A stretch of DNA of 64,000 nucleotides from Mucilaginibacter rubeus (GTDB taxonomy: Bacteria > Bacteroidota > Bacteroidia > Sphingobacteriales > Sphingobacteriaceae). The position numbers were made by a program, and so were the translations under genes. The DNA lies in NCBI RefSeq assembly GCF_014643835.1, contig NZ_BMKD01000001.1:434001-498000 (forward strand), read 5' to 3'. Shown here piece after piece: positions 5,023-20,021 of the stretch (positions within the stretch are counted from its first letter, which is position 1; every line of letters begins with the position of its first letter). The notes beneath the pieces are model-generated. The model saw only the letters and a program-made list of their open reading frames with translations, was not told the DNA's origin and ran no database searches.

Positions 5023-5461
5023 GTTGGTGGTTTATAACTGCAGTTAATGGATTTGCTCGTATCTACGGTTGAATTTTCTATAATCTTTTTGATTGAATTA
5101 AACGAATCTGGCCCGATCATAGCATACATATAATACAATTATCGGTAGTATGATAATTAGGGTACCAACTGCTTTGTTTCACAATGTAAGCCGTGGCTCA
5201 ATTGTCATGGTCTTTAGCCTTTAATCGACAAAAAAAATCGACATCTCACGAAATATCGCCACGTAATTGTTGTTGATTGAATTCAAGCTGTTGAAAATCA
5301 ATGATATGTTTGTGTGGTATAAGGTTTGCAAATGCAAGGGCAACCATTTTCTTGCCTTTTGCATAAACAATGTCCGATAAATTGATGTTTCTCCCCGGTG
5401 CATGGCTGCAAATAGGAATTTTTAAAATAAATTTGATTTACTTTTAACAACAAAAACTACG
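5023..5461. other. Intergenic region without a supported gene
   Basis: This AT-rich spacer lies upstream of the polyphosphate operon. A 60-codon minus-strand frame at 5221-5403 has no recognisable features and is not called. The only signal seen is a -7 promoter element just before the next gene. Confidence 0.4.
5428..5435 (+). promoter_or_regulatory. Candidate -7 element for the polyphosphate operon
   Basis: TAAATTTG matches the Bacteroidota -7 consensus TAnnTTTG exactly and lies 26 bases before the ATG of the HD-domain gene. No TTG sits at the usual 19-21 base spacing; the nearest match is CTG at 5406-5408. Confidence 0.45.
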
Positions 5462-6709
5462 ATGAAATTTCAACCGCTGTTAGAACAGGTAAAACAGTAC
5501 GCTATATCCTATTTTGACGTACATCATGATCCCGATTTAATTTATCATAACCTGAGGCATACTAAAGATGTTGTTGCAGCGGCCACACAGATAGCTAACC
5601 ACTATCAGTTAAGTGATGAAGATTTTTTTGTAGTGATCTCCGCTTCCTGGTTTCACGATACGGGGTACTTCACCGATAAAAAAGATCACGAATCAAAAAG
5701 TGTTGCGCTGGCTACACATTTTCTTAAACAGCATAAAGTTGAGCAAGCTGTTATCGATAAGGTATCCGGCTGTATTTTGGCAACCAAAATGCCGCAAAGC
5801 CCTGCCGATTTATTGCAACAGATCATCTGCGATGCAGATTTGTTTCATTTAGGTACAGATGATTTTCGCGATAAAAACAAGTTGTTGCGCAAAGAGATGG
5901 AAGCCATCAAAAAGCATGATATTGATAAGGATGAATGGCGCAACTACAACATCGAATTTTTGCAGGGACACGAATACTATACTGATTATTGCCGACTGCT
6001 GCTTAACGATCAAAAACATAAAAACCTGCAAAAACTGATAGAAAAGCAGGCTGATGTGGAAGTGAAGGAAACACCGGAAATTCTTATAGCTGATGCAGGT
6101 GGGGACGCTGTCATCACGCACGAAAAAGAGAAGGATAAAGACAAAGACCACGATGATGATCACGGTGGTAAAAAACATAAGAATGACAGGCCCGACCGCG
6201 GTATCGAAACAATGTTCAGGATCAGCTCCAGCAACCATCAGCGTTTAAGCGATATGGCCGATAATAAAGCCCATATTATGATCACGGTTAACTCTATCAT
6301 CCTTTCGGCAATTATCAGTTTGGTGCTGCGTAAGCTTGATGAGCATTCAAATTTGTTGATCCCAACTTTCATGCTCCTGTCGGTTAGTTTGGCTACTATG
6401 ATCTTCTCCATACTTTCAACCCGTCCGTCAATTCCGCCGGGTTTGTTTACACCCGAGGATATCAATAAAAAAACAGTTAACCTGTTGTTTTTCGGTAACT
6501 TCTACCGTATGTCATACCAGGATTACAGCGACGGTATGGAGAAAATGATGGAAGACCGCGAGTTTCTGTACGGCAGCTTAATCCGCGATAACTATTCGCA
6601 GGGTGTTGTACTTGGCAAAAAATACAGGTTGCTCAGGGCATCGTACAATATATTCATGTTTGGCCTTATCGTATCGGTAGTAGCATTCATCATATCTTCA
6701 TTACTGTAG
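5462..6709 (+). CDS. HD-domain phosphohydrolase fused to a Pycsar-effector-type membrane domain
   Basis: The protein has 415 residues in two parts. Residues ~25-190 form an HD domain: H29xxxH33, the H65-D66 pair in WFHDTG, and a later DADLFHLG. A very charged Lys/Asp/His linker (~220-245) follows. The last ~170 residues (from RGIETMFRISSSNHQRLSDMA) have three hydrophobic segments (~272-292, 297-315, 394-414) and match what I know of DUF5706, the 'Pycsar system effector' membrane domain. HD domains typically hydrolyse phosphate esters, often nucleotides or nucleotide signals; PycTM proteins are membrane effectors of cyclic-pyrimidine signalling. No cyclase gene lies nearby. The gene is 36 bases upstream of ppk1 and probably co-transcribed with it, so a role in nucleotide or phosphate signalling is as likely as phage defence. 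Confidence 0.85.
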   Translation: MKFQPLLEQVKQYAISYFDVHHDPDLIYHNLRHTKDVVAAATQIANHYQLSDEDFFVVISASWFHDTGYFTDKKDHESKSVALATHFLKQHKVEQAVIDKVSGCILATKMPQSPADLLQQIICDADLFHLGTDDFRDKNKLLRKEMEAIKKHDIDKDEWRNYNIEFLQGHEYYTDYCRLLLNDQKHKNLQKLIEKQADVEVKETPEILIADAGGDAVITHEKEKDKDKDHDDDHGGKKHKNDRPDRGIETMFRISSSNHQRLSDMADNKAHIMITVNSIILSAIISLVLRKLDEHSNLLIPTFMLLSVSLATMIFSILSTRPSIPPGLFTPEDINKKTVNLLFFGNFYRMSYQDYSDGMEKMMEDREFLYGSLIRDNYSQGVVLGKKYRLLRASYNIFMFGLIVSVVAFIISSLL

Positions 6710-6745
6710 GCGGTCGGGGTACTGCCAAAAACAAAATCTACGCCT

Positions 6746-8791
6746 ATGGAATACTCATTTTTCGACAGGGACCTGAGCTGGTTACTTTTCAATGAACGCA
6801 TATTGATGGAGGCCGAAAGTGAAGAGCTCCCTGTAATGGAAAGGGTAAATTTTCTTGCTATATTCTCATCCAACCTCGACGAATTTTATCGCGTGCGGAT
6901 GCCGGTGGTAATGGCATTGCACAAGCTTAACCTGCTTAATAAAACCGATGAAAGCGAGGATGTGCTATATAAAGCCCAGCAACTGGTAGAAGCTCAGCAA
7001 AATCGGTTTGGGAAGGTTTTTACAGACAGACTTATTCCGTTGTTAAAAGAAAATAATGTAAACCTGTTGTTCAATGAGCGTATTCCTGCTTCTATAGCCG
7101 ATAGAGTGAGCGACTATTTTTACAGCCAGGTACTTGCCTTTCTGCAACCTATTGACCTGGTAGGCGGTAAAAAACAATTCTTCCCCGAAAATAACCGGCT
7201 ATACTTTTTAGTGAACCTTGGTTTGGATAAGAAGAAGGAAAGGTCAGTGATCCTCAATATTCCGTCGAACCAGTTGCCGCGATTTTTTAGTGTTAACGAA
7301 GATGGTAAACAATACATCATTTTCCTGGATGACATTGTGCGGTACAATCTCGGCAAGATCTTCAAAACCGAAGAAATAAAAGGCTGTTACAGCTTCAAAA
7401 TAACCCGCGACGCTGAGCTTGAACTTAAAGATGATTATGACGGTGATGTTCAGGAGCAGATAGAAAAACAATTGCTAAAACGTGATCTGGGTTTGGCAAC
7501 GCGCTTTTTGCATCAGCCGGGTATCCCGCTGCGCATATTGCATTTAATTGAAGATAAGCTGGGCGTACAGGGATCAAGCGTTGTTGAAGGTGGCTTTTAT
7601 CATAACCTTAAAGATTTAATGAGTTTGCCGGTAGGTATTCCATCATTAAAATATACCAAATGGCCGCCATTGGTAAACCGGCAGATCAGCGCAGACGAAT
7701 CCATATTTGATTATATAGATAAAGGCGATTGTATTTTTCATGCGCCTTATCAATCCTATAACTCCATTCTTCGCTTTTTTAACGAGGCAGCTATCGACGA
7801 AAACGTTGAGGAAATCTCCGTAACGCTTTACCGCGTAGCCAGCGATTCGCGGATTGTAAACGCGCTGATCAGTGCTGCCCAAAGCGGTAAAAAAGTGAGG
7901 GTACTGGTTGAGCTAAAAGCCCGTTTTGATGAAGCCAACAATATCAAATGGGCTAAAAAGCTAAAAGCAGCCGGTGCCAATATCATTTACAGTGATAAGG
8001 CCATAAAAGTACACGCCAAAGTTGGCCTTGTAAAGCGCCTTGTTGACGGCCGCGTTAAATATGCCGGACTTTTAGCAACAGGTAATTTTAACGAAAGTAC
8101 AGCTGCTTTTTATACCGATCATATCATGATGACGGCCAATCCGCAATTGCTGCGCGAAATGGACCTGCTGTTCATCTACCTTGCTAAAAAAGCAAAATCG
8201 GCCGAGGGATATGATATTGATTTTAAATACCTGCTGGTGGCTCAATTTAATTTGCAATCAAAGTTTATTGAGCTTATTGACAGGGAAATTGAGCAGGCCC
8301 GTAAAGGGAAGCCGGCAGGGATCACCATAAAGCTCAATAACCTGGAAGAGCGGGTATTGATTGGCAAACTCTACGAAGCGTCGCAGGCGGGGGTGAAGAT
8401 CAGGATGATTGTACGTAGTATTTGCTGCCTGATCCCCGGAGTACCAGGCATGAGCGAAAATATTACCATAAGGCGTATTGTTGACCGATACCTGGAACAT
8501 GGGCGTATTTTTATATTCCACAATGGTGGTAATCAAGAGGTATTTATGGGTTCGGCCGATTGGATGAACCGTAATATTTATCGTCGTATTGAGGTTTGTT
8601 TTCCGGTTTATGATGAACGTATCAGGAACGAGGTAATAGCCATGCTTGATATTCAACTGGCCGATAATGTGCAGGCCGTAAATTTAAATGAACAATTGCA
8701 AAACATAAGGGTTGATAAAACTGAACCGCAGGTACAATCGCAGCGCGCCATTTATGAACTTTTACAGCAAAAAAAATATGACAGGGTTTAA
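6746..8791 (+). CDS. ppk1: Polyphosphate kinase 1
   Basis: Ppk1 reversibly transfers the terminal phosphate of ATP onto polyphosphate. The 681 residues are the usual length. The N-terminus FFDRDLSWLLFNERI is typical of the family. H423 in KVHAKVGLV fits the autophosphorylated histidine and H592 in IFIFHNGG the second conserved histidine; ATGNFNEST and GSADWMNRNIYRR are also diagnostic. The start at 6746 places FFDRDLSW at the very N-terminus as in relatives. The gene overlaps the following lipoprotein gene by 14 bases, so the two are likely translationally coupled. Confidence 0.97.
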   Translation: MEYSFFDRDLSWLLFNERILMEAESEELPVMERVNFLAIFSSNLDEFYRVRMPVVMALHKLNLLNKTDESEDVLYKAQQLVEAQQNRFGKVFTDRLIPLLKENNVNLLFNERIPASIADRVSDYFYSQVLAFLQPIDLVGGKKQFFPENNRLYFLVNLGLDKKKERSVILNIPSNQLPRFFSVNEDGKQYIIFLDDIVRYNLGKIFKTEEIKGCYSFKITRDAELELKDDYDGDVQEQIEKQLLKRDLGLATRFLHQPGIPLRILHLIEDKLGVQGSSVVEGGFYHNLKDLMSLPVGIPSLKYTKWPPLVNRQISADESIFDYIDKGDCIFHAPYQSYNSILRFFNEAAIDENVEEISVTLYRVASDSRIVNALISAAQSGKKVRVLVELKARFDEANNIKWAKKLKAAGANIIYSDKAIKVHAKVGLVKRLVDGRVKYAGLLATGNFNESTAAFYTDHIMMTANPQLLREMDLLFIYLAKKAKSAEGYDIDFKYLLVAQFNLQSKFIELIDREIEQARKGKPAGITIKLNNLEERVLIGKLYEASQAGVKIRMIVRSICCLIPGVPGMSENITIRRIVDRYLEHGRIFIFHNGGNQEVFMGSADWMNRNIYRRIEVCFPVYDERIRNEVIAMLDIQLADNVQAVNLNEQLQNIRVDKTEPQVQSQRAIYELLQQKKYDRV

Positions 8792-9674
8792 AAAACAAGA
8801 TGCTAAACGTGCAATGACCCTTTATGTAGCCGGCATGCTTGCCGTGGCCGTAGTTTTTTTGATCATCTCTTGTAAAAATAAAGAAAAGGCAATCCCTGCC
8901 AGTCCGACGGGATACGACCTTAATAATCCTGTTAAATATAAAATGCCCGAAGATCTCACCGAAATCTCTGGTTTTGCCTTTCACAATGGTAAAAATGATT
9001 CGGTTTATGCCGAGCAGGACGAAGAAGGCTTTTTGTTTAACCTGAAACTGGGCGATAAAAAAGCTAACTATACCAAGTTTGGCAAAAGCGGTGACTATGA
9101 GGATGTGACCATTTGCCGTGAACAGGTGATCATGCTAAAAAGCGATGGTACATTGTTTACGTTTCCTTTTAGCCAGGTTAGGACAAAAGAAGCAGCCAAG
9201 GTACAAAAGATTAAAGGCGAATTGCCCGAAGGTGAATTTGAAGCTATGTGCGCAGATGAAAAGACCGGCCTGGTTTACGTGCTTTGCAAACATTGCGCCG
9301 ACGAAAAAACATCCAAAAGCAGCAACGGCTATATTTTGAAACTTCAGGCAGACGGGACCCTGAAGCAGGCCGGCAGTTTTGCAATAGATGTTAAGGAAAT
9401 TGAGCGGTTGGCTGATAAAAAGCGTGTACCGTTCCGCCCTTCGGCAATGGCGAAAAATACATTTACCAATGAATGGTATATCCTTTCGTCGGTAAATAAG
9501 ATGCTGATAGTTACCGATATTAACTGGAAAGTAAAAAATGTTTATCCTTTAAGTGTTACCATATTCGGACAGCCCGAAGGTATGGCATTTGATAACCAGC
9601 GCAACCTGTATATCTCCAACGAGGGCGATCAGTTAAGTGCAGGCAATATATTGAAATTCAGCTTTAAGAAATAG
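8778..9674 (+). CDS. SdiA-regulated-type beta-propeller lipoprotein
   Basis: The start at 8778 is chosen because an upstream in-frame ATG (8712) would overlap ppk1 by 80 bases; a start at 8814 is also possible. The 298-residue product begins with a hydrophobic signal ending in a lipobox (LIISC), so it should be lipid-anchored. The body resembles the SdiA-regulated family, six-bladed propeller-like proteins of unknown biochemical role: EDLTEISGFAF near the start, SGDYEDVTI, and GQPEGMAFD with LYISNEGD near the end. Its place between ppk1 and the metallophosphoesterase fusion suggests an envelope role linked to phosphate metabolism; that is inference only. Confidence 0.8.
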   Translation: MTGFKKQDAKRAMTLYVAGMLAVAVVFLIISCKNKEKAIPASPTGYDLNNPVKYKMPEDLTEISGFAFHNGKNDSVYAEQDEEGFLFNLKLGDKKANYTKFGKSGDYEDVTICREQVIMLKSDGTLFTFPFSQVRTKEAAKVQKIKGELPEGEFEAMCADEKTGLVYVLCKHCADEKTSKSSNGYILKLQADGTLKQAGSFAIDVKEIERLADKKRVPFRPSAMAKNTFTNEWYILSSVNKMLIVTDINWKVKNVYPLSVTIFGQPEGMAFDNQRNLYISNEGDQLSAGNILKFSFKK

Positions 9675-9724
9675 CTCTTTAAAGCACTCATAACACAAAT
9701 AAATATACATCTCAACCAAACCTC

Positions 9725-12700
9725 ATGATTAAAAAACTACCCTTGCTGTTTGTTTTATTATTGGGCATGCTAAAAGCCGAGGCCCAGGATTCGGTACAGT
9801 ACAGGATGATCCTTATTGGCGATGCCGGCGAAATAGATCTGCAGCAAAGTGCCGTTTTGAAACATGCCGCTGCCAATATTCTTAAAAATAAAACTTCGGT
9901 ATTTTATCTGGGCGATAATATCTATCCACGGGGAATGGGTTTGCCGGGTAGTTCTGAAGAAGCCGAAACTAAAAAGATCCTGCAATCGCAATATCTACCT
10001 ATGCGCGCCACCGGTGCGCCTGTTTACTTTATACCGGGTAATCATGACTGGGACAAGATGGGCCCGCTTGGTTTAGCTAAAATAAAACGCCAGTGGGCGT
10101 TTTTGGATCAGCAGGGCGATAAGCTGCTTAAAATGGTGCCCGAAAACGGCTGCCCCGATCCGGTTGAGATCAACCTTACCAATGACCTTACCGTAATAGC
10201 TTTTGACAGCGAATGGTGGTTATATCCATTCAATAAAAGTAACCCCGGCGCCGAGTGCGATTGTAAAAACAAAGATGACATTGCCGATAAGATCAAGCTG
10301 ATCTTTGAGCGCAATAAAGATAAAGTGATCATCCTGGCATCGCACCATCCATTCCAGAGTTATGGTACGCATGGCGGATATTTTTCGCTTAAAGATCATA
10401 TCTTCCCGCTTACTGTGGCTAATAAAGACCTTTGGGTGCCCTTGCCTGTTATAGGTTCGCTTTACCCGTTTTTGCGCTCTACATTTTCAAACCCCGAAGA
10501 TTTGGGGCATCCCTTGTATAAAGACATGATCAGAAAGGTGGATGCTGTTTTTGGAAGTTTTCCAAACCTGATCCACGTGGCGGGTCATGAGCATAGCTTG
10601 CAATTCATTAAAAGTAAACAGGTGCAGGTGGTTAGCGGCGCTGGTGCCAAGCAAACCTACGCCATTAAAGGCAAATACTCACTTTTTGCTGACGCTACGC
10701 AAGGCTACGTAACTGCCGATCTGCTGATAGATAAACGGGTGCGTTTCACGTATTATATCGACAGTGATAAAGGTGTTAAACAGGTGTTTACGTATACGCA
10801 GCCTTATACATCTGTAAAAAATGTCCCTGATACGCTGCACACGCCTATTAAGGCAGATAGCATAATGGTTAGGGTCCATCCGAAATACGATAGCGTAAGC
10901 AATTTTCACCGTCGCTGGTTTGGCGAAAACTACCGTAAGGAGTGGGCTGCCGAAACTAAGCTGCCTGTGATAAGGCTGTCACAAATTCATGGCGGATTAA
11001 AGGCCGAAAGCATTGGCGGCGGGTTCCAAACACACTCGCTTCGTTTAATTGATAAGGATGGGAAGGAGTGGGTGCTGCGCAGTGTTGAGAAACAGCCCGA
11101 AAAGATTTTGCCCGACGAATTCCAGGAGACCTTTGCTAAAGATTGGGTTAATGATGCCATGAGCGCCCAGCACCCGTTTTCGGCGTTGATAGTACCACCG
11201 CTGGCCGATGCCGCCCGTGTGCCGCATGCCAACCCGATAATCGGTGTGGTATCGGCTGATCCTGTTTTAGGTCAATATGCAAATATTTTTGCCAATAAAG
11301 TTTGTTTGCTTGAAGAACGCGAACCAGGTGGCAAATCCGATAATACCGTGAAGATGATCGGTAAAATGCTGGAGGATAATGATAATACAGTAGATGGCGA
11401 CGAATTTTTACGTGCCCGCCTGCTCGATTTGCTTATTGGCGACTGGGACAGGCACGGCGACCAGTGGCGCTGGCGCGATGAGGATAAAGGGAAAGGCAAG
11501 TTTTATACCGCCGTTCCGCGCGACCGCGATCAGGTATTTTACACCAACCAGGGTGTATTGCCAACCATAGCAGCGCAGCCATGGGTAGCGCCGAACCTGC
11601 AGGGCTTTAGCGGTGAGATCTACAGCGTAAAATATTCCTTATGGAAAACCATGTTTATGCAACGGTGGCCATCGGTACAATACAGTCATGAACAATGGAC
11701 CAAAATTGTGAATGATTTTGTCGCTGCCGAAACTGACGACGTATTGGAAGCCGGTTTAAGGCGCCTGCCCGAATCATCGTATAAATTAAGGCATGATGTA
11801 TTGCTAAAGCAACTGAAAGAACGGCGCGCTAATATCCCGGCCGAAATGGAGTATTACTACAAATTCATCAATAAAATAGTTGATATCCACACTTCAAATA
11901 AAAATGAGCTGGTAACGGTGAAAGATGAGCCTAATGGCAGTCTCAATGTGATCATCAATAAGATCAATAAAGATGGTGAGATTAAGGATACGCTCATGAA
12001 CCAGAATTATCATCCTGATATTACCAAAGAGCTCCGCATTTATGTAAGCGGCGGCGATGATAAGGTAGTGCTTGATAATGCCACATCACCAATAAAACTG
12101 AGGTTTATCGATAGCACAGGCACCAAAACTTACAATATTGTAAAATCGCTTAACACGGTACAGCTTTATGACCGTGGCAAAAAGCTGAGTATAACTGGCG
12201 ACGAATCAAGGGTTAACAAACACATAAGCAAGGATAGCGCTAATACGTCATACTTAAGAGTTAATCTGATGAATGTGATAGCGCCGCTGGCTAATATCTC
12301 TTACAACCCGGATGAGGGCGTATTGCTTGGAGCAGGTTTTAAATATACTCACCAGGAGGGTTTTCAAAAACTGCCTTACAACGATGTGCAAACAGTGTTT
12401 GCCAGTCACTCGTTCACAACAAAGGCTTTTAAGATTAAATATAACGGCGAGTGGATCCACGCTTTTGGCAAAGCCGACTTTTTGATGGATGCCCAGCTCG
12501 ACTTTCCGGATAACATCAATTTTTTTGGCAGGGGCAACGAAACGCTGTTTGTTAAAGTTGGCGATTATCGCAAATATTATCGTACCCGCTTTGATAATTT
12601 TACCTTTAGCCCAGCCTTTAGGTGGCGTAATGAATCGGGAACTTCTGTAACGGTAGGTCCTGCTTTTCAGTACTATAAATTAGATGTTGACGACAATATC

Positions 12701-13330
12701 GGCCGATTTATTACATATCCGTTACTCACAAATGCGCCCGACAGTTATACCTTTGATAAAACAAAAATGCATGCCGGTATAGTTGTTAACTTTACCAGTG
12801 ATAAACGCAATGACAAGATACTTCCGGCCTGGGGAAGTTTTGTAAATATTAAACTTCAGGAGTTTAATGGCTTAAATAATAACTCCACAAGTTTTGCCCA
12901 GCTTATACCCCAGGTTGCTTTGTACAAAAGCCTGAATGCCAAAAGCACTATTGTTTTGGCGGATAGGATGGGCGGCGGCATTACCATCGGAAAAACCGCT
13001 TTTTATCAGTCGTTGTTTTTAGGCGGGCAGGATAACTTATTAGGCTACAGGTTATACAGGTTTGCCGGCCAGCATAGTTTTTATAATAACCTGGAGTTGA
13101 GGATAAAATTAACTGATTTTGCCAGTTATATAGTTCCCGGACAAATAGGTGTTTTAGGATTTTATGATATAGGCCGTGTTTGGGAAAACGGGCAAGGCTC
13201 GGATAAATGGCACAACGGCACCGGTGCAGGTTTTTATGTTGCTCCTGCACGATTGGCAGTTATTAAGATAATCGCCGGTTACTCTGAAGAAGGATGGTAC
13301 CCTTATCTTTCAACAAGTTTCAGATTTTAA
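9725..13330 (+). CDS. Metallophosphoesterase / CotH-HipA-like kinase / Omp85 barrel fusion
   Basis: A 1201-residue secreted protein with signal peptide (cut after AEAQ, residue 21) and three regions. Residues ~25-330 are a calcineurin-like phosphoesterase with all metal motifs: GD (32-33), GDN (63-65), GNHD (105-108), ASHHP and AGHEH (286-290). Residues ~430-620 look like a divergent kinase: a Gly-rich loop GGGFQ (431-435) followed by SLRL and VLRSVEK, a catalytic-loop-like DWDRHGDQ (573-580), and VPRDRDQVF (acidic residues 600, 602), the same order as in CotH/HipA/FAM20-type kinases. Residues ~820-1201 are strand-rich, contain LGGQDNLLGYR and end in aromatic STSFRF, as in Omp85/BamA-TamA barrels. 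The enzymatic parts would sit on one side of the outer membrane. The gene lies 50 bases after the propeller gene in the ppk1 operon. Confidence 0.85.
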   Translation: MIKKLPLLFVLLLGMLKAEAQDSVQYRMILIGDAGEIDLQQSAVLKHAAANILKNKTSVFYLGDNIYPRGMGLPGSSEEAETKKILQSQYLPMRATGAPVYFIPGNHDWDKMGPLGLAKIKRQWAFLDQQGDKLLKMVPENGCPDPVEINLTNDLTVIAFDSEWWLYPFNKSNPGAECDCKNKDDIADKIKLIFERNKDKVIILASHHPFQSYGTHGGYFSLKDHIFPLTVANKDLWVPLPVIGSLYPFLRSTFSNPEDLGHPLYKDMIRKVDAVFGSFPNLIHVAGHEHSLQFIKSKQVQVVSGAGAKQTYAIKGKYSLFADATQGYVTADLLIDKRVRFTYYIDSDKGVKQVFTYTQPYTSVKNVPDTLHTPIKADSIMVRVHPKYDSVSNFHRRWFGENYRKEWAAETKLPVIRLSQIHGGLKAESIGGGFQTHSLRLIDKDGKEWVLRSVEKQPEKILPDEFQETFAKDWVNDAMSAQHPFSALIVPPLADAARVPHANPIIGVVSADPVLGQYANIFANKVCLLEEREPGGKSDNTVKMIGKMLEDNDNTVDGDEFLRARLLDLLIGDWDRHGDQWRWRDEDKGKGKFYTAVPRDRDQVFYTNQGVLPTIAAQPWVAPNLQGFSGEIYSVKYSLWKTMFMQRWPSVQYSHEQWTKIVNDFVAAETDDVLEAGLRRLPESSYKLRHDVLLKQLKERRANIPAEMEYYYKFINKIVDIHTSNKNELVTVKDEPNGSLNVIINKINKDGEIKDTLMNQNYHPDITKELRIYVSGGDDKVVLDNATSPIKLRFIDSTGTKTYNIVKSLNTVQLYDRGKKLSITGDESRVNKHISKDSANTSYLRVNLMNVIAPLANISYNPDEGVLLGAGFKYTHQEGFQKLPYNDVQTVFASHSFTTKAFKIKYNGEWIHAFGKADFLMDAQLDFPDNINFFGRGNETLFVKVGDYRKYYRTRFDNFTFSPAFRWRNESGTSVTVGPAFQYYKLDVDDNIGRFITYPLLTNAPDSYTFDKTKMHAGIVVNFTSDKRNDKILPAWGSFVNIKLQEFNGLNNNSTSFAQLIPQVALYKSLNAKSTIVLADRMGGGITIGKTAFYQSLFLGGQDNLLGYRLYRFAGQHSFYNNLELRIKLTDFASYIVPGQIGVLGFYDIGRVWENGQGSDKWHNGTGAGFYVAPARLAVIKIIAGYSEEGWYPYLSTSFRF

Positions 13331-13353
13331 AGAAGGGTAAAATTATAATTAAA

Positions 13354-15711
13354 ATGCACACGGAAGTACTCAATATAAGCAAAAACGAATGCACCATTTG
13401 TCAGGTTGAAACATGCCTGACTTTTAACCCGTTCGTGGCACATTTAAAAGAACGGATCGCTACCGAAAAAACGCTCAAAAGCGAGTTTTATCGCTACGTT
13501 TTGGAGCGTTTTGAGCACGATATATGTATTGACCTGGATATGCGACCAACAGATGCCGAAAAGTACCGGGAAATGCTGGAGCTCATTTACTCCATACTGA
13601 CACCGCCAATAGCTAACGAAAAGGAATTTCACTGGGCGCTAAGTACACCGGTACCTGATAAAATATTTTTCAGTACTGAGGCTTTTTATGATTTCCATTC
13701 AAGTCATCATTCTAATTTATATGCGTTGAATGTATCCAAGAACGAAATGTTCAGTGACAGGCAAAAGCGGTTCATTTATAACCTGATTCTTGAACGGATG
13801 TATGGCTTTTCGTCGGCAATTAAGAATGAATTGCTGTTTTCATACGAAGATCCTGAAACCGGTCTTTCAAGGTATTTTAATATCCAGACTGATGCCCGCT
13901 TCGTGGAGGTTGAATTGAATGGCGAACTGCCCGAACTTAGCTTTGATACTATTGAACCCTATTTACATTCACATACCAGCCTTGAGTTAATTGAAAAGGT
14001 AATACCACTTAATATTTTTAAATTCAAGGGGTTCACAATAATTACGTTAACAGATGTAACGTTAACGCATGCACTTGAAAATATTCGTACCGAGCTGGTT
14101 AACCATTCGGCAAATGAGGAGGAGCAATATGCGCACATCATCAGCTCGCTAAAATCCCTTGCCGAAAGCCCAGGCATTGAGTTTGGGTTGATGCCTTTTT
14201 TAACCATCAATAATGAGCCTATTTTTGATAACGACGAATGCTCCAGAAGTATCCTGCTTAAGGCCGCTAAAGATTTTAACCTTGCGGAAGAAACGTTTGA
14301 CGCCATCATTGATGATTACAACCAGAACCCGAGGCCTATCTTTTTCAATTCCATTACCGACGAAAAGATAGGTAAATTCCCCTTTTTGCAGGTTTTGAAA
14401 CAAGCCGGCATTAAATCTTACGGAATTTTCCCGGTGTACTACAATAAGAAAAATGTAGGCATCATGGAAGTGTTTTCATATAAAGAGATTGTTTTTTACG
14501 AAAAACTGCTCTCGAAATTACAGGCTACTATCCCGCTGATTGCCCAATTGCTGCAAAACAGCATCGATCAGTTTGAGGCCCGCATTTCAAGTGTTATCAA
14601 AAATAAATTTACCTCGTTGCAACCGTCGGTTCAATGGAAGTTTAATGAAGTGGCCTGGAATTATCTTAAGGAAAAAAGAAAGAGGAAAAAGAGCCCTGAA
14701 ATTGAAACAGTATCATTCAGCCATGTTTACCCTTTATTTGGTGCGGTTGATATCCGTAACTCCACGGTTGAGCGTAACAGCGCCCTGCAGGAGGATTTGA
14801 AAAATCTGCTCACCATACTTATTGAAACGCTTCAGGTTTTAAATGAAAATATTCATTTAAGCCTTACCGGCAAGCTGGTATCTAAATGCGAAGAGTGGCT
14901 CGAACGCATCAGCGGTTATATTACTACCAATGATGAATTGATGCTGGATACTTTCCTTCATAACGAGATTAATCCTTTCCTGGAGCATTTCAGAAATAAT
15001 TACCCTGCCGAAAGGGAAACTATTGACAGGTATTTTAATGCCATGAATGAGGAAACCGGCGCTTCGTTTGAAAACAGGCGCAACCTGGAAACCTCCATGC
15101 AGCTTATCAATACTTCTATCAACCAATACCTGGAGCAGGCTCAGACAGAAGTGCAGGAATCATTTCCCTGTTATTTTGAAAAATTCCGTACCGATGGGGT
15201 GGAATATGATATTTACATAGGGCAATCAATAGCGCCGCAACGCGTTTTCGATATGCTGTACCTTAAAAATATCCGTTTGTGGCAGTTACGATCAATGGCC
15301 GAGATAGCCCGGATGACAAACGACCTTGGCGATCAGCTTTCACGTCCTTTGCAAACCACGCACTTAATATTTATTCACTCAAACGCTATAGATATCAGTT
15401 TCAGAAACGATGAAAGGCGTTTTGACGTTGAGGGGGCCTATAATATCCGTTACGAGGTGGTAAAAAAGCGGATTGATAAAGTTTTAATAGCAGGAACTTT
15501 TGAACGCCTTACCCAGCCCGGCAAAATAGCCATGGTATATTTTAACCCAACAGAAGCTGCTGAATATGACGAGTACATCAGGTACCTGCAAGTACAAGGC
15601 TATTTGCTGGATGACCTGGAATATCTTGAACTGGAAGAGTTACAGGGCGTTACAGGCTTAAAAGCGTTAAGGGTTGGAGTTAATTATCAATTGCCGTTAT
15701 TAAATAGCTAA
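13354..15711 (+). CDS. GAF-domain protein of unknown function
   Basis: The ATG at 13354 (785 residues) is preferred because an earlier in-frame ATG at 13294 lies inside the preceding gene. The N-terminal part is helical and hydrophilic with no signal peptide. A GAF-like sensor region is placed at roughly 250-420 (KFPFLQVLKQAG, SYGIFPVYYNKKNVGIMEVFS). After it comes HVYPLFGAVDIRNST, which resembles the first metal-binding strand of class III nucleotide cyclases, but the second metal and base-binding motifs are not evident, so cyclase activity is not claimed. A conserved-looking stretch FRTDGVEYDIYIGQS lies near residue 630. It is the last gene of the ppk1 operon, 23 bases after the barrel fusion. 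Confidence 0.7.
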   Translation: MHTEVLNISKNECTICQVETCLTFNPFVAHLKERIATEKTLKSEFYRYVLERFEHDICIDLDMRPTDAEKYREMLELIYSILTPPIANEKEFHWALSTPVPDKIFFSTEAFYDFHSSHHSNLYALNVSKNEMFSDRQKRFIYNLILERMYGFSSAIKNELLFSYEDPETGLSRYFNIQTDARFVEVELNGELPELSFDTIEPYLHSHTSLELIEKVIPLNIFKFKGFTIITLTDVTLTHALENIRTELVNHSANEEEQYAHIISSLKSLAESPGIEFGLMPFLTINNEPIFDNDECSRSILLKAAKDFNLAEETFDAIIDDYNQNPRPIFFNSITDEKIGKFPFLQVLKQAGIKSYGIFPVYYNKKNVGIMEVFSYKEIVFYEKLLSKLQATIPLIAQLLQNSIDQFEARISSVIKNKFTSLQPSVQWKFNEVAWNYLKEKRKRKKSPEIETVSFSHVYPLFGAVDIRNSTVERNSALQEDLKNLLTILIETLQVLNENIHLSLTGKLVSKCEEWLERISGYITTNDELMLDTFLHNEINPFLEHFRNNYPAERETIDRYFNAMNEETGASFENRRNLETSMQLINTSINQYLEQAQTEVQESFPCYFEKFRTDGVEYDIYIGQSIAPQRVFDMLYLKNIRLWQLRSMAEIARMTNDLGDQLSRPLQTTHLIFIHSNAIDISFRNDERRFDVEGAYNIRYEVVKKRIDKVLIAGTFERLTQPGKIAMVYFNPTEAAEYDEYIRYLQVQGYLLDDLEYLELEELQGVTGLKALRVGVNYQLPLLNS

Positions 15712-15782
15712 AAGCCTAAGGCTGAAAGCTTAAAGCGACAAGAAATCAAATAAAGCAAAAAAAGCTTTCAGCCTTAGGCTTT
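15711..15782. repeat. Long inverted repeat between convergent genes, likely bidirectional terminator
   Basis: Two perfect 21-base arms (15711-15731 and 15762-15782) flank a 30-base A-rich loop. The left arm begins at the last base of the GAF gene stop codon, and the right arm overlaps the stop and last codons of the acetyltransferase on the other strand. The arms are built from AAGC/GCTT words (AAAGCCTAAGGC, GAAAGCTT), a style seen in repeated intergenic hairpins of Sphingobacteriaceae. Confidence 0.75.
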
Positions 15783-16325
15783 CGGCTTTGAGCTTGATAA
15801 GATCGCTTTCCTCATTAATAAATCGGTTTGCTTATCGCTTCCCAGGACAAATTCATGGCTGCTGAATACTTCAAAGCCATGTTTTTCATAAAAGGCAATT
15901 GCTTTTAGGTTGTGTTCCCAAACACCAAGCCAAACGTATTGCAGGTTTTTATCCGTAGCTGCTTTTAAGGTGAAATCAATAAATTGGTGGCCTATCTTTT
16001 TGCCGTGATATTCGGCCAAAACATAAATGCGCTCAATTTCAACTGCCGCAGGATCCTGAAATTCTGTTTGGGCGTGGCTATAGTTTAGCTTGAGATAACC
16101 GGTTATTTCACCATCCAGCATCGCGAAGAAAAAATGAGAGTTTGGGTTACTGAGCTCTGCTTGTATTTTTTGCGGAGTGAAGGCTACAGATGCATAAGCC
16201 TCCATATCTTCTGGTTTATTTAAATGAGCAAAGAAATCAAAAAACGTTTTTTTGCTTAACTCCAATAATACGTCGGCATCAGCCAAAGTTAATTTTTTAA
16301 TTGTTACAGTTTCGGAAATAGCCAT
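15774..16325 (-). CDS. GNAT family N-acetyltransferase
   Basis: This 183-residue protein has the GNAT fold markers: IERIYVLAEYHGKKIG gives strand 4 and the acetyl-CoA pyrophosphate-binding loop, followed by WLGVWEHNLKAIAFYEKHGF with the conserved N, A, FYxKxGF of motif B. It would transfer an acetyl group from acetyl-CoA to an amine; the substrate is unknown, although the layout resembles small-molecule or peptide acetyltransferases. The last residues (SSSKPKA) are encoded by the intergenic inverted repeat, so its C-terminus appears to have been extended or replaced by that element. The gene lies 25 bases after the sigma-factor partner gene and may share its transcript. Confidence 0.88.
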   Translation of the reverse strand: MAISETVTIKKLTLADADVLLELSKKTFFDFFAHLNKPEDMEAYASVAFTPQKIQAELSNPNSHFFFAMLDGEITGYLKLNYSHAQTEFQDPAAVEIERIYVLAEYHGKKIGHQFIDFTLKAATDKNLQYVWLGVWEHNLKAIAFYEKHGFEVFSSHEFVLGSDKQTDLLMRKAILSSSKPKA

Positions 16326-16350
16326 CAGGCAAATCTAAAAAACTAATCCT

Positions 16351-16941
16351 TTAATCAAATTGTTCTTTCAACCTCACCAGTCTGTCAATCATAAGGTTTA
16401 GCTTTTCTTCCTCGTTCTTAAACATCCGGGGTTTAAGGTAAAACGTAGTGAACAAAAACCAGATCCCGATTGATGTATATGTTACTATTTTAAAGGTGAG
16501 TGATGAATGTTCAAGTACCTCGATAAAATACATGGCTAAACCGGCGCTTAGCAACAATATATAGGTATAATAAAACCAGCCTATAACTTTGCTCCGGTTT
16601 TTTTGATATGCCTTAAGGCTGTCAAGATATTCGGCAGGATTGAGGGTTGCATCGCGCTTACTCAAAATGTGATAATGACGTACCATTAACGAAAGATACA
16701 TCAACATGGTTACCAGTACGATGAGGATCCCGATAGTAGTAACTGCAGACTTAAATGCCAGAAAAAAAGTGACGACAAAAGCAAACGCAACGGTTACAAC
16801 CATGGCCACAATACTCCAGTATAACTTTTGGGTTATACTCCTTATTCCCTTCTTTACCTGCTTCAGCACCTCATCCACCGAAAGCTGATCTGGTTTTGGC
16901 TGTCCCTGCCAAACCGACATCAAATGATCAAAGTCTTTCAT
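16351..16941 (-). CDS. Four-helix membrane protein, probable ECF sigma partner
   Basis: A 196-residue protein with a cytoplasmic N-terminal ~38 residues (HLMSVWQGQPKPDQLSVDEV) and four hydrophobic segments in two pairs (about 42-62, 68-88, 124-140, 150-168), then a basic tail. Its start overlaps the end of the sigma-factor gene by 14 bases, which implies translational coupling. Genes in this position commonly encode anti-sigma factors, but no zinc-binding anti-sigma motif (HxxxCxxC) is present, so the role is inferred from position only. Confidence 0.65.
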   Translation of the reverse strand: MKDFDHLMSVWQGQPKPDQLSVDEVLKQVKKGIRSITQKLYWSIVAMVVTVAFAFVVTFFLAFKSAVTTIGILIVLVTMLMYLSLMVRHYHILSKRDATLNPAEYLDSLKAYQKNRSKVIGWFYYTYILLLSAGLAMYFIEVLEHSSLTFKIVTYTSIGIWFLFTTFYLKPRMFKNEEEKLNLMIDRLVRLKEQFD

Positions 16942-17425
16942 ACTGGTTATATAACTCCGTTAATTTTTGTTTTATACGATAAATTTTCACCCTCAAATTT
17001 CCTTCTGATATACCCGAAATTTCGGCAATTTCGGGGTATGGCACCTCATCAAGTACCATAGTTATAATAATCCTTTCTGATTCTTCCAGTTTTGAAATAC
17101 ACTTATAGAGCAAAGCTACCTGCTCGTTTTTATCCGATAGTTCTTCTCGTTTTGTTTCTGCTAATTGTGGGGTTAGTTCGTCTTTGGCCTGGCGTTTTTC
17201 CGAGCGCAAATAGGTTAAACAGGTATTTACAGCAATGCGGTAAATCCAGGTTGATATCATGGCCTGGTTACGGAATTTCTCTAAATTTTGCCAAACCTTT
17301 AAAAAGGTTTCCTGTAGCAGGTCGTTGGCGGCATCGTCATCGCCGGTATAACCATAGCACAGATGGAATATCTTTTTAGAATTAGCTTCATATATCTGCT
17401 TGAATGCTGCTTCTTTGTTGGCCAC
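16928..17425 (-). CDS. ECF-type RNA polymerase sigma factor
   Basis: A 165-residue sigma-70 family protein. Region 2 (about 10-80) shows DDDAANDLLQETFLKVWQNL, the core-binding and -10-recognition helices, and STWIYRIAVNTCLTYLR. Region 4 (about 110-160) shows LEESERIIITMVL and YPEIAEISGISEGNLRVKIYRIKQKL, the helix-turn-helix for the -35 element. There is no region 1 or 3, as in the ECF class. It should direct RNA polymerase to a small regulon, probably under control of the membrane protein encoded immediately downstream. Confidence 0.93.
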   Translation of the reverse strand: MANKEAAFKQIYEANSKKIFHLCYGYTGDDDAANDLLQETFLKVWQNLEKFRNQAMISTWIYRIAVNTCLTYLRSEKRQAKDELTPQLAETKREELSDKNEQVALLYKCISKLEESERIIITMVLDEVPYPEIAEISGISEGNLRVKIYRIKQKLTELYNQYERL

Positions 17426-17466
17426 TTCAGTTAATTTTATATTTAGACGATGTTAAGCTTTATATG

Positions 17467-17994
17467 TTACAACAAGTGATCATTCTTTTTAAACCAGCCC
17501 AGCTTGCTTTCGGCATCGCTTATTAGTTTATTGTAACTGTCCTGGTAATCAAACTGTAAGTCTTCGTGGAGCTTATTGATTAAGCCACGGATCTTTTCAA
17601 CCTGCCTTATTAATATCAGCCTTAAAGGCTTGTATGATGTACGCCTGTCGGCATATTCAAGGTAATTTTCGCAAAAATTGATCAGCAATTCAATCTCAGC
17701 ACCTTTTGATGCCATAAACTTGATGTATTTACTCAGCAATCTCAATATTTTGCGCATGCCCTTTGCAGCGTTGTAACTTAATGATGATAACTGGCTGAAC
17801 ATGAAGCCGGCTTCGGCTTTTACTTTTTCTACAAAGGCGGCTTCATCATGGGCTTCAAAAAGCAGGTAGGCCAACAGCTCTTTGTTTTCCTTTTTGTAGC
17901 GTGCCAGGCGCAGCATTAATTCGGCCAGCTGCTCGTTAGGCAGGTGCTGAATTTCTTTTTTTATATGCTGTAATCCGTAGGCGGTAGTAGTCAT
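17467..17994 (-). CDS. Conserved-type helical protein of unknown function
   Basis: A 175-residue soluble protein, predicted almost wholly helical, rich in Leu, Lys and Glu, with no signal peptide or recognised domain. It starts with IKKEIQHLPNEQLAELMLRLARYKKENKELLAYLLFEA, reminiscent of short helical repeats. It lies 41 bases upstream of the ECF sigma gene on the same strand and could head that operon. Confidence 0.6.
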   Translation of the reverse strand: MTTTAYGLQHIKKEIQHLPNEQLAELMLRLARYKKENKELLAYLLFEAHDEAAFVEKVKAEAGFMFSQLSSLSYNAAKGMRKILRLLSKYIKFMASKGAEIELLINFCENYLEYADRRTSYKPLRLILIRQVEKIRGLINKLHEDLQFDYQDSYNKLISDAESKLGWFKKNDHLL

Positions 17995-18238
17995 GTTGTA
18001 AATAAGCAGGCAAAATACTAATTGTTTAAATATTTTTCACGAATTGCATTTAAGCTTGATTCAATTAGAACGAATTACACGAATGGGTCTACTAATTATA
18101 TTGATGTAATTAATGTAGTTCGCAAAATTAGTTAAGAAATTAAAATAGCGTTTGCTGGGGCAACGATTTTATTTCCTCATCCGATTTAAACGGAAAATAG
18201 AATATTCCCATAGCAGTTTAAACAGCGCGTAAATTTTG

Positions 18239-18246
18239 TAGTTTTG
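18239..18246 (+). promoter_or_regulatory. Candidate -7 element for the symporter gene
   Basis: TAGTTTTG fits TAnnTTTG exactly, 17 bases before the symporter ATG. At the expected upstream spacing (19 bases) there is TTT rather than TTG. Confidence 0.45.
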
Positions 18247-18263
18247 CAGGCTTATTAAATTAA

Positions 18264-19655
18264 ATGAAAAAAAGCAGACTGACGCTCTTCATTTTTATCG
18301 CACTGGTATTGGGTGTGATAGCCGGTTATATTTATAACACCTACGTTTTCGCCGATCTTAATAAACAACTCAGTACCGCAGGTGCTGCAATTAAAAGTAT
18401 CGACAAAAAAATAGAAGCATTACCCGATACCTCAGTTGCAGCCTACAAAGACCTTAAGTTACAAAGAATTGCCCAGGTTAAATTGCAAGGCCAGGCTACA
18501 GATGCGCGGGAGGATAAACTTGAGCTTTATAACATCCTGAGCAAGATTTTTCTTAACCTCATTAAAATGATTGTGGCTCCATTGGTGTTTACCACATTGG
18601 TGGTAGGCGTAGCCAAGGTAGGGGATATCAAAGCCGTTGGCAGGATAGGTGGCAAAACCATGCTCTGGTTTATCAGCGCTACGCTGGTATCCTTATTATT
18701 AGGGATGCTATTGGTTAACCTGTTTGAGCCAGGCAAAACCATGCATTTGCCACTGCCTGATAGTCATTTAAGTACAGGCATTAAAAAAACGGCATTATCA
18801 TTAACCGAATTCGTTGGTCACGTTTTCCCTAAGAGTTTTATTGAGGCAATGGCCAATAATGAGATCTTACAGATTGTGGTGTTCTCTTTGTTTTTTGGCG
18901 TAGCTACCGCTGCTATAGGTGAGCAAGGTAAAATAGTGATCAAAGCGATGGATGCTTTTGCCCATGTGATTATGAAGATTACCGGTTATGTGATGAAAAT
19001 GGCCCCTTTAGCTGTATTTGGTGCCATAACTGCGGTAGTGGCCAAGCAAGGAATAGGTGTACTTTCAACCTATGGTATTTTTATCAGCGAGTTCTATTTT
19101 TCGCTCATCGTACTTTGGTCTGTGATTATATTAGCCGGGTATATTGTATTAAGAAAGCCGGTGTTCAGGCTGCTTAACAGTATTAAAGATGCTATGTTGA
19201 TAGCATTTAGTACTTCCACAAGTGAAGCGGCTTATCCAAAGGTATTGGAAGAACTGGAGAAATTTGGCTGTAGCAATAAAATAGTGAGCTTTGTATTGCC
19301 ATTGGGCTATTCGTTTAATTTGGATGGTTCAATGATGTATATGACCTTTGCATCATTGTTCCTGGCGCAATCATATGATATTCATCTTTCATTCGGGCAC
19401 CAGTTATCCATGTTGCTGGTGCTGATGCTTACCAGCAAAGGCGTGGCGGGTGTACCGAGGGCTTCGCTGGTGGTTATAGCAGGTACGCTGGCAATGTTCA
19501 ATATCCCGGAAGCTGGTTTGTTTTTGCTGATAGGCATTGATCCACTGCTTGATATGGGACGTTCAGCCACAAACGTATTAGGCAACGCTATGGCTACAGC
19601 GGTTGTGAGTAAGTGGGAAGGAGAAGAAGTAGGTACCCAAATAATAAGAGAATAA
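18264..19655 (+). CDS. Dicarboxylate/amino-acid:cation symporter (DAACS family)
   Basis: A 463-residue transporter of the GltP/DctA type, importing C4-dicarboxylates or acidic amino acids with Na+ or H+. The C-terminal substrate-binding core is intact: STSTSEAAYP (the serine-rich hairpin HP1), GYSFNLDGSMMYM (TM7 NMDGT-like), LTSKGVAGVPRAS (HP2) and DMGRSATNVLGNAMA (TM8). Between TM1 and TM2 there is an extra hydrophilic, coiled-coil-like segment of about 55 residues (~31-85), absent from well-known members, where it should lie outside the inner membrane. The gene appears monocistronic. Confidence 0.92.
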   Translation: MKKSRLTLFIFIALVLGVIAGYIYNTYVFADLNKQLSTAGAAIKSIDKKIEALPDTSVAAYKDLKLQRIAQVKLQGQATDAREDKLELYNILSKIFLNLIKMIVAPLVFTTLVVGVAKVGDIKAVGRIGGKTMLWFISATLVSLLLGMLLVNLFEPGKTMHLPLPDSHLSTGIKKTALSLTEFVGHVFPKSFIEAMANNEILQIVVFSLFFGVATAAIGEQGKIVIKAMDAFAHVIMKITGYVMKMAPLAVFGAITAVVAKQGIGVLSTYGIFISEFYFSLIVLWSVIILAGYIVLRKPVFRLLNSIKDAMLIAFSTSTSEAAYPKVLEELEKFGCSNKIVSFVLPLGYSFNLDGSMMYMTFASLFLAQSYDIHLSFGHQLSMLLVLMLTSKGVAGVPRASLVVIAGTLAMFNIPEAGLFLLIGIDPLLDMGRSATNVLGNAMATAVVSKWEGEEVGTQIIRE

Positions 19656-19689
19656 AACATGCCTTCATTGTGGGAAACCTGGAATCAGC

Positions 19690-19840
19690 AGTGATGGTAC
19701 ACAAAATATATTTCAGGGATATGCGCAGGGGCCGCGTTAGGGATTGCAGTGTAAAGCCCACAGCGCGGGTTGGGGTTGCGGGCAGGAAAGGCGAGGACTT
19801 GTAACGGAAAGCCCGGCCGCAGGCAACGCCCAAGTTTATA
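19690..19840. repeat. GC-rich structured intergenic stretch, candidate dispersed element
   Basis: The spacer between the symporter and the next gene (19656-20077) has no supported gene. This part is far more GC-rich than its surroundings and contains two similar words, GTGTAAAGCCC (19749-19759) and GTAACGGAAAGCCC (19801-19814), with self-complementary GCCC/GGGC blocks between them. I have seen similar 'AGGGATTG...GGAAAGCCC' intergenic sequences in Bacteroidota. Whether it is a decayed repeat or a structured RNA cannot be decided here. Confidence 0.4.
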
Positions 19841-19879
19841 AATAGATAAAAACATTCAATAATCAACAGCTTACAAGTA

Positions 19880-20021
19880 CGTCATTACAAGGAACAAGAC
19901 AAAAAACCCAAAGAGAACTCATTAATACCTATAAAATCAAATTATAGCTATCAATTAATAACGTCTGATAAAACATAGGCGCTCTGTAAAGTTCGCGATT
20001 GCTTCGTACCTCGCAATGACG
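19880..20021. mobile_element. MITE-like element with terminal inverted repeats
   Basis: The left end reads CGTCATTACAAGGAACAAG (19880-19898). The reverse complement of the right end (20002-20021) reads CGTCATTGCGAGGTACGAAG. They agree at most of the first 18 positions. The 142-base interval has no coding potential and is AT-rich inside. GTCATTGCGAGG...GAAGCAATC is a word common in short palindromic dispersed repeats of several phyla. No clear target-site duplication was seen. It is followed by short near-repeats of 'TTCACTAA' (20035-20070). Confidence 0.5.

Follow-up and report, generated by a model that had tools for sequence, protein, structure and literature searches.

The protein described here is encoded on the + strand at positions 9725-13330 of a 64,000-nucleotide stretch of the Mucilaginibacter rubeus genome (contig NZ_BMKD01000001.1, positions 434,001 to 498,000; this whole stretch is called the window). 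Its 1201 residues, read from an ATG start, join a metallophosphoesterase, a middle domain predicted to have a kinase-like fold and a C-terminal Omp85 barrel. What is new is the presence of a kinase-fold domain in these proteins, together with the recurrent clustering of its gene with genes for PPK1 (polyphosphate kinase), an SdiA-regulated-like protein, a GAF-like protein and an HD-like/PycTM protein. We lean, with reserve, toward reading the protein as an outer-membrane-anchored, probably periplasm-facing phosphotransferase that is sometimes fused to a phosphatase and is tied to the polyphosphate or phosphate state.

Fold of the middle domain

An initial annotation, made from the sequence alone, had taken the region between the phosphoesterase and the barrel to be kinase-like and had named a non-kinase predicted fold, in advance, as evidence against itself. 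We modeled residues 378-740 with AlphaFold2 (AF2) from an alignment with the top 80 of 588 confirmed relatives, taken from named genomes, and the model was confident throughout (mean predicted local distance difference test score, pLDDT, 91.3; predicted template modeling score, pTM, 0.91; every residue at 50 or above). Its fold is kinase-like. A Foldseek search of the PDB gave six matches at E ≤ 1e-3, namely, CtkA (7.5e-5), three chains of PI4KIIalpha (1.4e-4), RIO2 (4.7e-4) and a pre-40S chain that we take to be probably a RIO kinase. Weaker matches were 7vkb, a bacterial kinase complex (presumably HipT; 4.3e-3), CotH (7.1e-3) and FAM20 (2e-2), and all of the best 50 of 491 PDB matches at E ≤ 10 look kinase-like, although some are titled by complex alone. 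The closest structural neighbors are thus CtkA and PI4KII, followed by RIO, 7vkb, CotH and FAM20, whereas by profile CotH ranks above HipA.

The profile ranking comes from an hhalign comparison of a profile of 61 diverse copies of the domain with 33 profiles, including 29 decoy families taken from the same loci and reversed versions of CotH and HipA. CotH scored 41.4 (with both motifs in register and gaps in the loop) and HipA scored 31.6, compared with 20.7 for the best of the 29 decoys, 17.1 for reversed CotH and 16.0 for reversed HipA. When the 61-domain profile was run against PDB sequences, CtkA ranked first (E = 0.03) with its DRH loop in register; with a profile built from the first 19 sequences, CtkA fell to E = 0.47, below two unrelated chains. 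The sequence scores are not decisive singly, yet they agree with the predicted fold. Some figures nevertheless count against a kinase assignment: the CtkA TM-scores are modest (0.40 and 0.51, with a root mean square deviation of 7.8, from Foldseek), the hhalign probabilities are just 41% for CotH and 11% for HipA, and the E value of the CtkA sequence match is borderline.

Family databases add no kinase name. Residues 396-725 had no Pfam match even at E ≤ 10, and 19 aligned members of the family, the window protein included, gave single matches at E values of 0.03-7.6, none of them to a kinase catalytic domain. The Pfam profiles of CotH (PF08757) and HipA_C (PF07804) went unmatched in the window protein and the 19 aligned members, NCBIfam returned Omp85_fam alone for the window protein, below its cut-off (83.6 of 200 bits), and a PADLOC scan returned no match at all for it. 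These results would suit a chance coincidence of motifs, but such a coincidence is contradicted by the confident model, the whole-PDB search and the decoy-controlled profile comparison, and we regard it as very improbable. The kinase-fold call stands because of the fold model with its PDB matches, the decoy-controlled profile scores and the conserved aspartates described below; on this predicted structure, we are nearly certain that the middle domain has a kinase-like fold.

Of 296 genomes sampled across the phylum, 111 carry the domain, one of them (G241) with a weak match only (2.6e-4); the window's domain has its nearest named relatives in Mucilaginibacter, with 97-98% identity. At the 80 named loci, the open reading frame (ORF) exceeds 1100 residues in 33 cases, measures 800-1000 in 45 and is shorter in 2, some lengths being cut by contig ends or frame breaks. 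Thirty copies in the 61-copy set are accompanied by both a phosphoesterase and a barrel, 23 by a barrel without a phosphoesterase and 8 by neither in the same ORF. Because these architecture classes require at least 12 changes on a quick domain tree (in which 22 of 58 inner branches are weak), the phosphoesterase has apparently been acquired or lost repeatedly, with the kinase-fold domain as the constant part. One sequence, L053, lies on a contig titled Williamsia (Actinomycetota) and groups with Chitinophagaceae sequences; its assembly is probably misbinned.

Active-site-like residues

Three motifs had been proposed to mark the kinase-like region. GGGFQ and DWDRHGDQ lie where they had been placed (residues 431-435 and 573-580), whereas VPRDRDQVF lies at 597-605 rather than 600-608, although the residue name D602 was correct. 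Together with the spread of the domain through the phylum, the conservation of these sites exceeds chance; it is high across the 61 diverse copies, both in the Gly-rich loop (G431 and G432 in 57 each, G433 in 55) and in the following strand region (R452 and K456 in 59 each), in the catalytic-loop-like motif (D573 in all 61, D575 in 57, H577 in 56, D579 in 53 and Q580 in 59) and in the second motif (D600 and D602 in 59 each). In the phosphoesterase-fused proteins of a full-length alignment (34 of 34), G431-433, Q435, R452, K456, D573, D575, R576, H577, Q580, D600 and D602 are invariant, so that the aspartates D573, D575, D600 and D602, whose loss in orthologues had been named as a second ground for abandoning the kinase proposal, are all retained. 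D579 is Asp in all 77 rows of the same alignment, from which four of the 80 loci were omitted for broken or cut frames. This alignment has 50 invariant columns, 30 in the kinase domain and 20 in the connector and barrel; the phosphoesterase cannot score among them, since many rows lack it.

D575 or D602 is altered in 5 of the 61 copies, one each at L117 and L143 and three barrel-fused copies at L144, L145 and L147. In the latter three, the Gly-loop and catalytic residues are altered together, as expected for one shared site, and from their sequences these are likely pseudokinases with degenerate active sites. At L117 and L143, one copy in which Ser replaces D575 and Arg replaces H577 adjoins intact copies, an arrangement that resembles, by analogy, the FAM20A/FAM20C pair. 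These two loci, from two genomes of one family (L117:7936-11275 and L143:6629-11648), carry adjacent free-standing kinase-fold putative lipoproteins.

Two positions depart from a textbook kinase. Strand 448-453 of the model carries R452, which seems to sit at the ATP-lysine place of the third strand, with K456 following, and Gln580 occupies the place of the catalytic-loop Asn. These substitutions, and the five copies with an altered D575 or D602, would be at home in a kinase fold that performs other chemistry (AMPylation or glutamylation) or merely binds ligands in the manner of a pseudoenzyme. However, all 34 fused proteins retain the two aspartates, the Gly loop and K456, which goes beyond expectation for a mere binder, and we rate this alternative as unlikely; the kinase-fold domain is likely to be an active transferase.

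We also compared the motifs with those of established families. CotH kinases had been credited with a WDxHxNN loop followed by PWDLDxxF; among 20 CotH-family proteins from genomes of the phylum, the second motif largely held (P-x-D-x-D-x-x-F/L in 15), but the loop did not, because neither D-x-H-x-x-N nor W-D-x-H occurs in any of them and 16 have W-D-x-Y instead. Conversely, D-x-H-x-x-N is present in 30 of 30 HipA-family proteins and P-x-D-x-D in none. By these counts, the loop of the window's domain is HipA-like and its second motif is CotH-like. It resembles CtkA as its best fold match, with the DRH loop of CtkA aligned in register, and HipA in its D-x-H-x-x-N-type loop, but it differs from CtkA, HipA and HipT in being exported and barrel fused, in having Gln for the loop Asn and a P-x-D-R-D motif and in lacking a Pfam HipA_C match. 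With CotH it shares the best profile match and the P-x-D-x-D-x-x-F/L motif; a Pfam match is lacking, the structural match is weaker, and its type of loop is foreign to the CotH proteins. PI4KII and FAM20, the latter of which works in the secretory pathway, are fold neighbors, but the window protein matches no Pfam family of theirs.

Phosphoesterase, barrel and membrane side

The full-length model (pLDDT 86.9, pTM 0.69; model numbering plus 21 gives protein numbering) has the order phosphoesterase, kinase-fold domain, connector, barrel. Both ends of the protein, which had been identified from motifs, are borne out by Pfam matches above the curated cut-offs (Metallophos at residues 29-223, E = 9e-7; Omp85, PF01103, at residues 946-1164, E = 2.7e-10). 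By profile and metal-ligand motifs, the N-terminal domain is a calcineurin-like metallophosphoesterase (PF00149), with a weak match to the purple acid phosphatase 1qfc among PDB sequences (E = 0.0064). Its metal ligands are present in most of the 34 fused copies (D33 in 33, D64 in 31, N106 in 32, H107 in 31, H208 in 31, H288 in 32 and H290 in 31), all seven together in 30 of them (not in L050, L087, L095 or L099). The PF01103 match and the 16 barrel strands place the C terminus in the Omp85 superfamily, and the best 50 of 807 Foldseek matches to the whole protein include the barrels of BamA and TamA (TMt 0.76 for that of TamA). Unlike Omp85 proteins of the BamA, TamA and FhaC types, which have POTRA domains, the window protein has an all-beta connector, with no POTRA match in Pfam at E ≤ 10 and no alpha/beta pattern in the model; judged by eye, free-standing copies also seem to carry connector-like sequence after the kinase domain.

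An Omp85 "Metallo" subfamily with PF00149 was defined in 2014, the domain being called a metalloprotease (Heinz and Lithgow, PMC4104836). Like it, the window protein has PF00149 before an Omp85 barrel and no POTRA, and we infer that the two are very probably the same proteins. A term search of the main text of that paper found none of the words kinase, phosphatase and metallophos, and neither the kinase-fold domain nor the phosphoesterase-free barrel proteins are described in the section that defines the subfamily. The terms kinase and metallophos are likewise absent from the searched text of a 2025 paper on the Bacteroidota BAM complex (PMC12611786), and in a literature survey that covered few subscription journals and no preprints, none of the papers listed described, in its title or the opening of its abstract, a kinase domain in Omp85-metallophosphoesterase proteins. 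A Riemerella metallophosphoesterase, which may or may not belong to this family, is tabulated in a review among the effectors of type IX secretion.

The proteins appear to be exported. By a crude rule, 77 of the 80 related named-locus ORFs have an N-terminal hydrophobic segment; of the remaining three, L050 is signal-peptide-like by eye, L103 is cut at a contig end, and L048 lacks the N-terminal part in frame. Six of the 8 free-standing copies start with a lipobox-like stretch, L113 is signal-peptide-like, and L128 starts with a membrane helix (all judged by eye). Because the N termini of Omp85 barrels are periplasmic in solved relatives, the kinase-fold and phosphoesterase domains probably face the periplasm, by analogy. 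It is less probable that the barrel or another route places both enzyme domains outside the cell, a route suggested for the patatin domain in PlpD (type Vd), which also has an enzyme domain N-terminal to an Omp85 barrel. In the window protein, the N-terminal domains lie ahead of strand one of a 16-strand barrel that resembles those of BamA and TamA, a position that is on the periplasmic side in those two proteins, and neither the patatin nor the POTRA of type Vd was found in it by Pfam or in the model. What speaks for surface exposure is the lipobox-like start of six free-standing copies, since Bacteroidota display many lipoproteins, and the fact that PMC4104836 leaves the membrane side of the "Metallo" domains open.

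The same paper conservatively proposed that undescribed Omp85 types serve in assembly (PMC4104836), and the window protein could be such an accessory outer-membrane assembly factor, its N-terminal domains acting only as periplasmic interaction modules. The barrel, with BamA and TamA as its best matches, fits this role, but the strong conservation of enzyme-like residues does not, nor does the occurrence of the kinase-fold domain without a barrel in the same ORF in 8 of 61 copies (one of which, L119, has a barrel ORF downstream); we consider the role improbable.

Gene neighborhood and second PPK1 copies

In the window, the gene order is HD-like/PycTM, PPK1, SdiA-regulated-like, kinase-fold and GAF-like (Table 1), with gaps of 36 bases between the PycTM gene and PPK1 and of 50 bases between the SdiA-like and kinase-fold genes. 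The adjacency to polyphosphate kinase that the initial annotation had pointed out recurs in relatives. We surveyed 120 loci, 80 from named genomes (biased to near kin) and 40 chosen by us across families, and found ppk1 in 37 and 10 of them, respectively (47 of 120), the SdiA-like gene in 39 and 16 and the GAF-like gene in 43 and 8, while 69 of the 120 kinase loci have a member of the PycTM blast cluster (which is a few members short) no more than 7 kb away. The 10 chosen loci with ppk1 span families f7, f25, f32, f46 and f49 beyond f1 and f6, with differing gene orientations; by our estimate, with stretches of 18 kb and genomes of 5 Mb, chance would place ppk1 at far fewer than one of 40 loci. 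The Bacteroidota promoter motif TANNTTTG stands at 5428-5435, before the PycTM gene, and next occurs on the + strand at 11284, but it gives weak support for one operon because it is no commoner than chance across the window (74 occurrences against a mean of 84.3).

PPK1 itself is present in 271 of the 296 genomes. Among 15 genomes picked for having the kinase family and at least two PPK1 matches, 13 of 30 PPK1 loci lie within ~7 kb of a kinase-family gene on the same contig, in 11 genomes; in G006 and G031 PPK1 is not near the kinase gene, and in G067 and G088 the genes are on different contigs and cannot be judged. In a quick tree of 42 PPK1 sequences (some of them near-copies), the linked copies of the window's families formed one group of 14 with support of 100, apart from the remaining PPK1 copies of those genomes. 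The linked copies from other families were scattered over mixed groups; family f25 has both of its copies linked, with one pair falling inside the main unlinked group. The linkage label required 5 changes on the tree versus 13.6 in shuffles. As judged from these groupings, linkage with a non-main PPK1 is recurrent in several lineages and not confined to one clade.

Among the 271 genomes with PPK1, the kinase family occurs in 40 of 79 with at least two matches versus 67 of 192 with one (Fisher p = 0.02; neither this test nor the next is corrected for kinship, and some of the counted matches may be fragments). In family f8 (63 genomes), two PPK1 copies are frequent with or without the kinase (9 of 13 kinase carriers and 36 of 50 others); with f8 removed, after its pattern had been seen, the counts became 31 of 34 versus 63 of 174 (p = 1.4e-9). 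The association is weak over all genomes and strong only without f8. Many kinase-carrying genomes outside f8 have two PPK1 copies, the second often lying near the kinase-family gene and diverging from the main copy. PPK1 motif patterns were too strict to judge activity and were not used (of 25 linked copies, they matched 17, 21, 22 and 16; of 15 unlinked copies, on which three patterns were run, they matched 5, 7 and 4, with L209 and L222 omitted).

From the computed domain order, kinase fold, conserved active-site-like residues, barrel and recurrent gene cluster, we infer how such a protein may work. It would be exported and its 16-stranded barrel inserted in the outer membrane, leaving a phosphotransferase of kinase-like fold (nearest CtkA/HipA, PI4KII and CotH) N-terminal to the barrel, most likely in the periplasm, preceded by the metallophosphoesterase. 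The kinase-fold domain would pass a phosphoryl group, or a similar one, to a target in the envelope (such as a glycan, a lipid or a protein of the outer membrane or periplasm), and the phosphoesterase would strip phosphate from the same or a related target. By acting with a PPK1 copy and an envelope lipoprotein, the kinase-fold gene would tie the process to the polyphosphate or phosphate state; a functional tie to polyphosphate, on which the weaker all-genome PPK1 count bears and for which gene position is still the main evidence, could go either way.

Several observations weigh against this mechanism. At 43 of the 80 named loci and 30 of the 40 chosen ones, ppk1 is outside the examined stretch, which in some cases is cut short by a contig end. 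Cycling between phosphatase and kinase cannot be a general feature, because 31 of 61 domain copies have no phosphoesterase and at least one of its seven metal-ligand places is altered in 4 of 34 fused copies. The periplasm is not expected to contain ATP, and use of ATP is not assured in any case, since Arg452 seems to be at the ATP-lysine place and Gln580 replaces Asn. For CotH, too, the source of ATP has been termed an unanswered question (PMC7821199). A different donor would account for the Arg-for-Lys and Gln-for-Asn changes, but that polyphosphate is this donor is doubtful. Just as doubtful is the fuller proposal of an ATP-independent outer-membrane-anchored kinase with which Bacteroidota would phosphorylate their envelope and which draws on polyphosphate from the neighboring PPK1, with the fused phosphoesterase trimming polyphosphate or reversing the mark. 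If the preferred phosphotransferase mechanism is true, a phosphorylation system common in the phylum would operate in a compartment thought to be ATP free, a published Omp85 subfamily would be re-read, and there would be a concrete way to ask what second PPK1 copies are for in some Bacteroidota.

Table 1. Features of the protein and its neighboring genes (window coordinates)
Feature	Position	Strand	Basis
415-residue protein, HD-like N-terminal half and PycTM membrane domain; first gene of presumed operon	5462..6709	+	PF18967 PycTM, E 1e-32
PPK1, in a clade apart from other PPK1 of related genomes	6746..8791	+	TIGR03705, 674 bits (cut-off 466); tree
Putative lipoprotein, SdiA-regulated-like; uncertain start, probably at an internal ATG	8712..9674	+	PF06977, E 2.9e-5, above cut-off; lipobox-like LIISC by eye
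Phosphoesterase - kinase-fold - Omp85 protein, 1201 residues	9725..13330	+	ORF, Pfam, models, Foldseek
Putative signal peptide, residues 1-21	9725..9787	+	Read by eye
Metallophosphoesterase domain, weakly purple-acid-phosphatase-like, residues 22-366	9788..10822	+	PF00149; PDB 1qfc, E 0.0064; model
Kinase-fold domain (predicted), residues 378-715	10856..11869	+	AF2 pLDDT 91.3; Foldseek; hhalign versus decoys
Gly-rich loop GGGFQ, residues 431-435	11015..11029	+	Sequence; conservation
R452 to K456, strand Arg presumed to occupy the place of the ATP lysine, then a second conserved Lys	11078..11092	+	Conservation; strand 448-453
Catalytic-loop-like DWDRHGDQ, residues 573-580	11441..11464	+	Sequence; conservation; profile alignment
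Metal-site-like VPRDRDQVF, residues 597-605	11513..11539	+	Sequence; conservation; profile alignment
All-beta connector without POTRA-like alpha/beta pattern, residues 718-834	11876..12226	+	Model
16-stranded Omp85 barrel, residues 851-1199	12275..13321	+	PF01103; model strands; TamA barrel TMt 0.76
GAF-like ORF, 805 residues, start uncertain; conserved neighbor	13294..15711	+	GAF_2 below cut-off, E 0.046

The HD assignment in the PycTM-gene product is a pattern reading, with no Pfam HD match at E ≤ 0.01. A defense system was considered and set aside: PADLOC matches the HD-like/PycTM neighbor alone (as Pycsar effectors) and not the kinase-fold protein, in a scan that did not include a search for a cyclase. 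Window positions 6000-20000 gave no plasmid match, and a plasmid origin was likewise rejected. Two phosphatase families also occur near the kinase gene. A family with a PAP2 phosphatase member is found at 19 of the 120 loci (the Pfam assignment is established for L150:4487-5332 only), and a SixA-like histidine phosphatase family is found at 6 of the 40 chosen loci (L114, L116, L120, L121, L123 and L150; Pfam His_Phos_1 is established for L150 only), five of which also carry ppk1.

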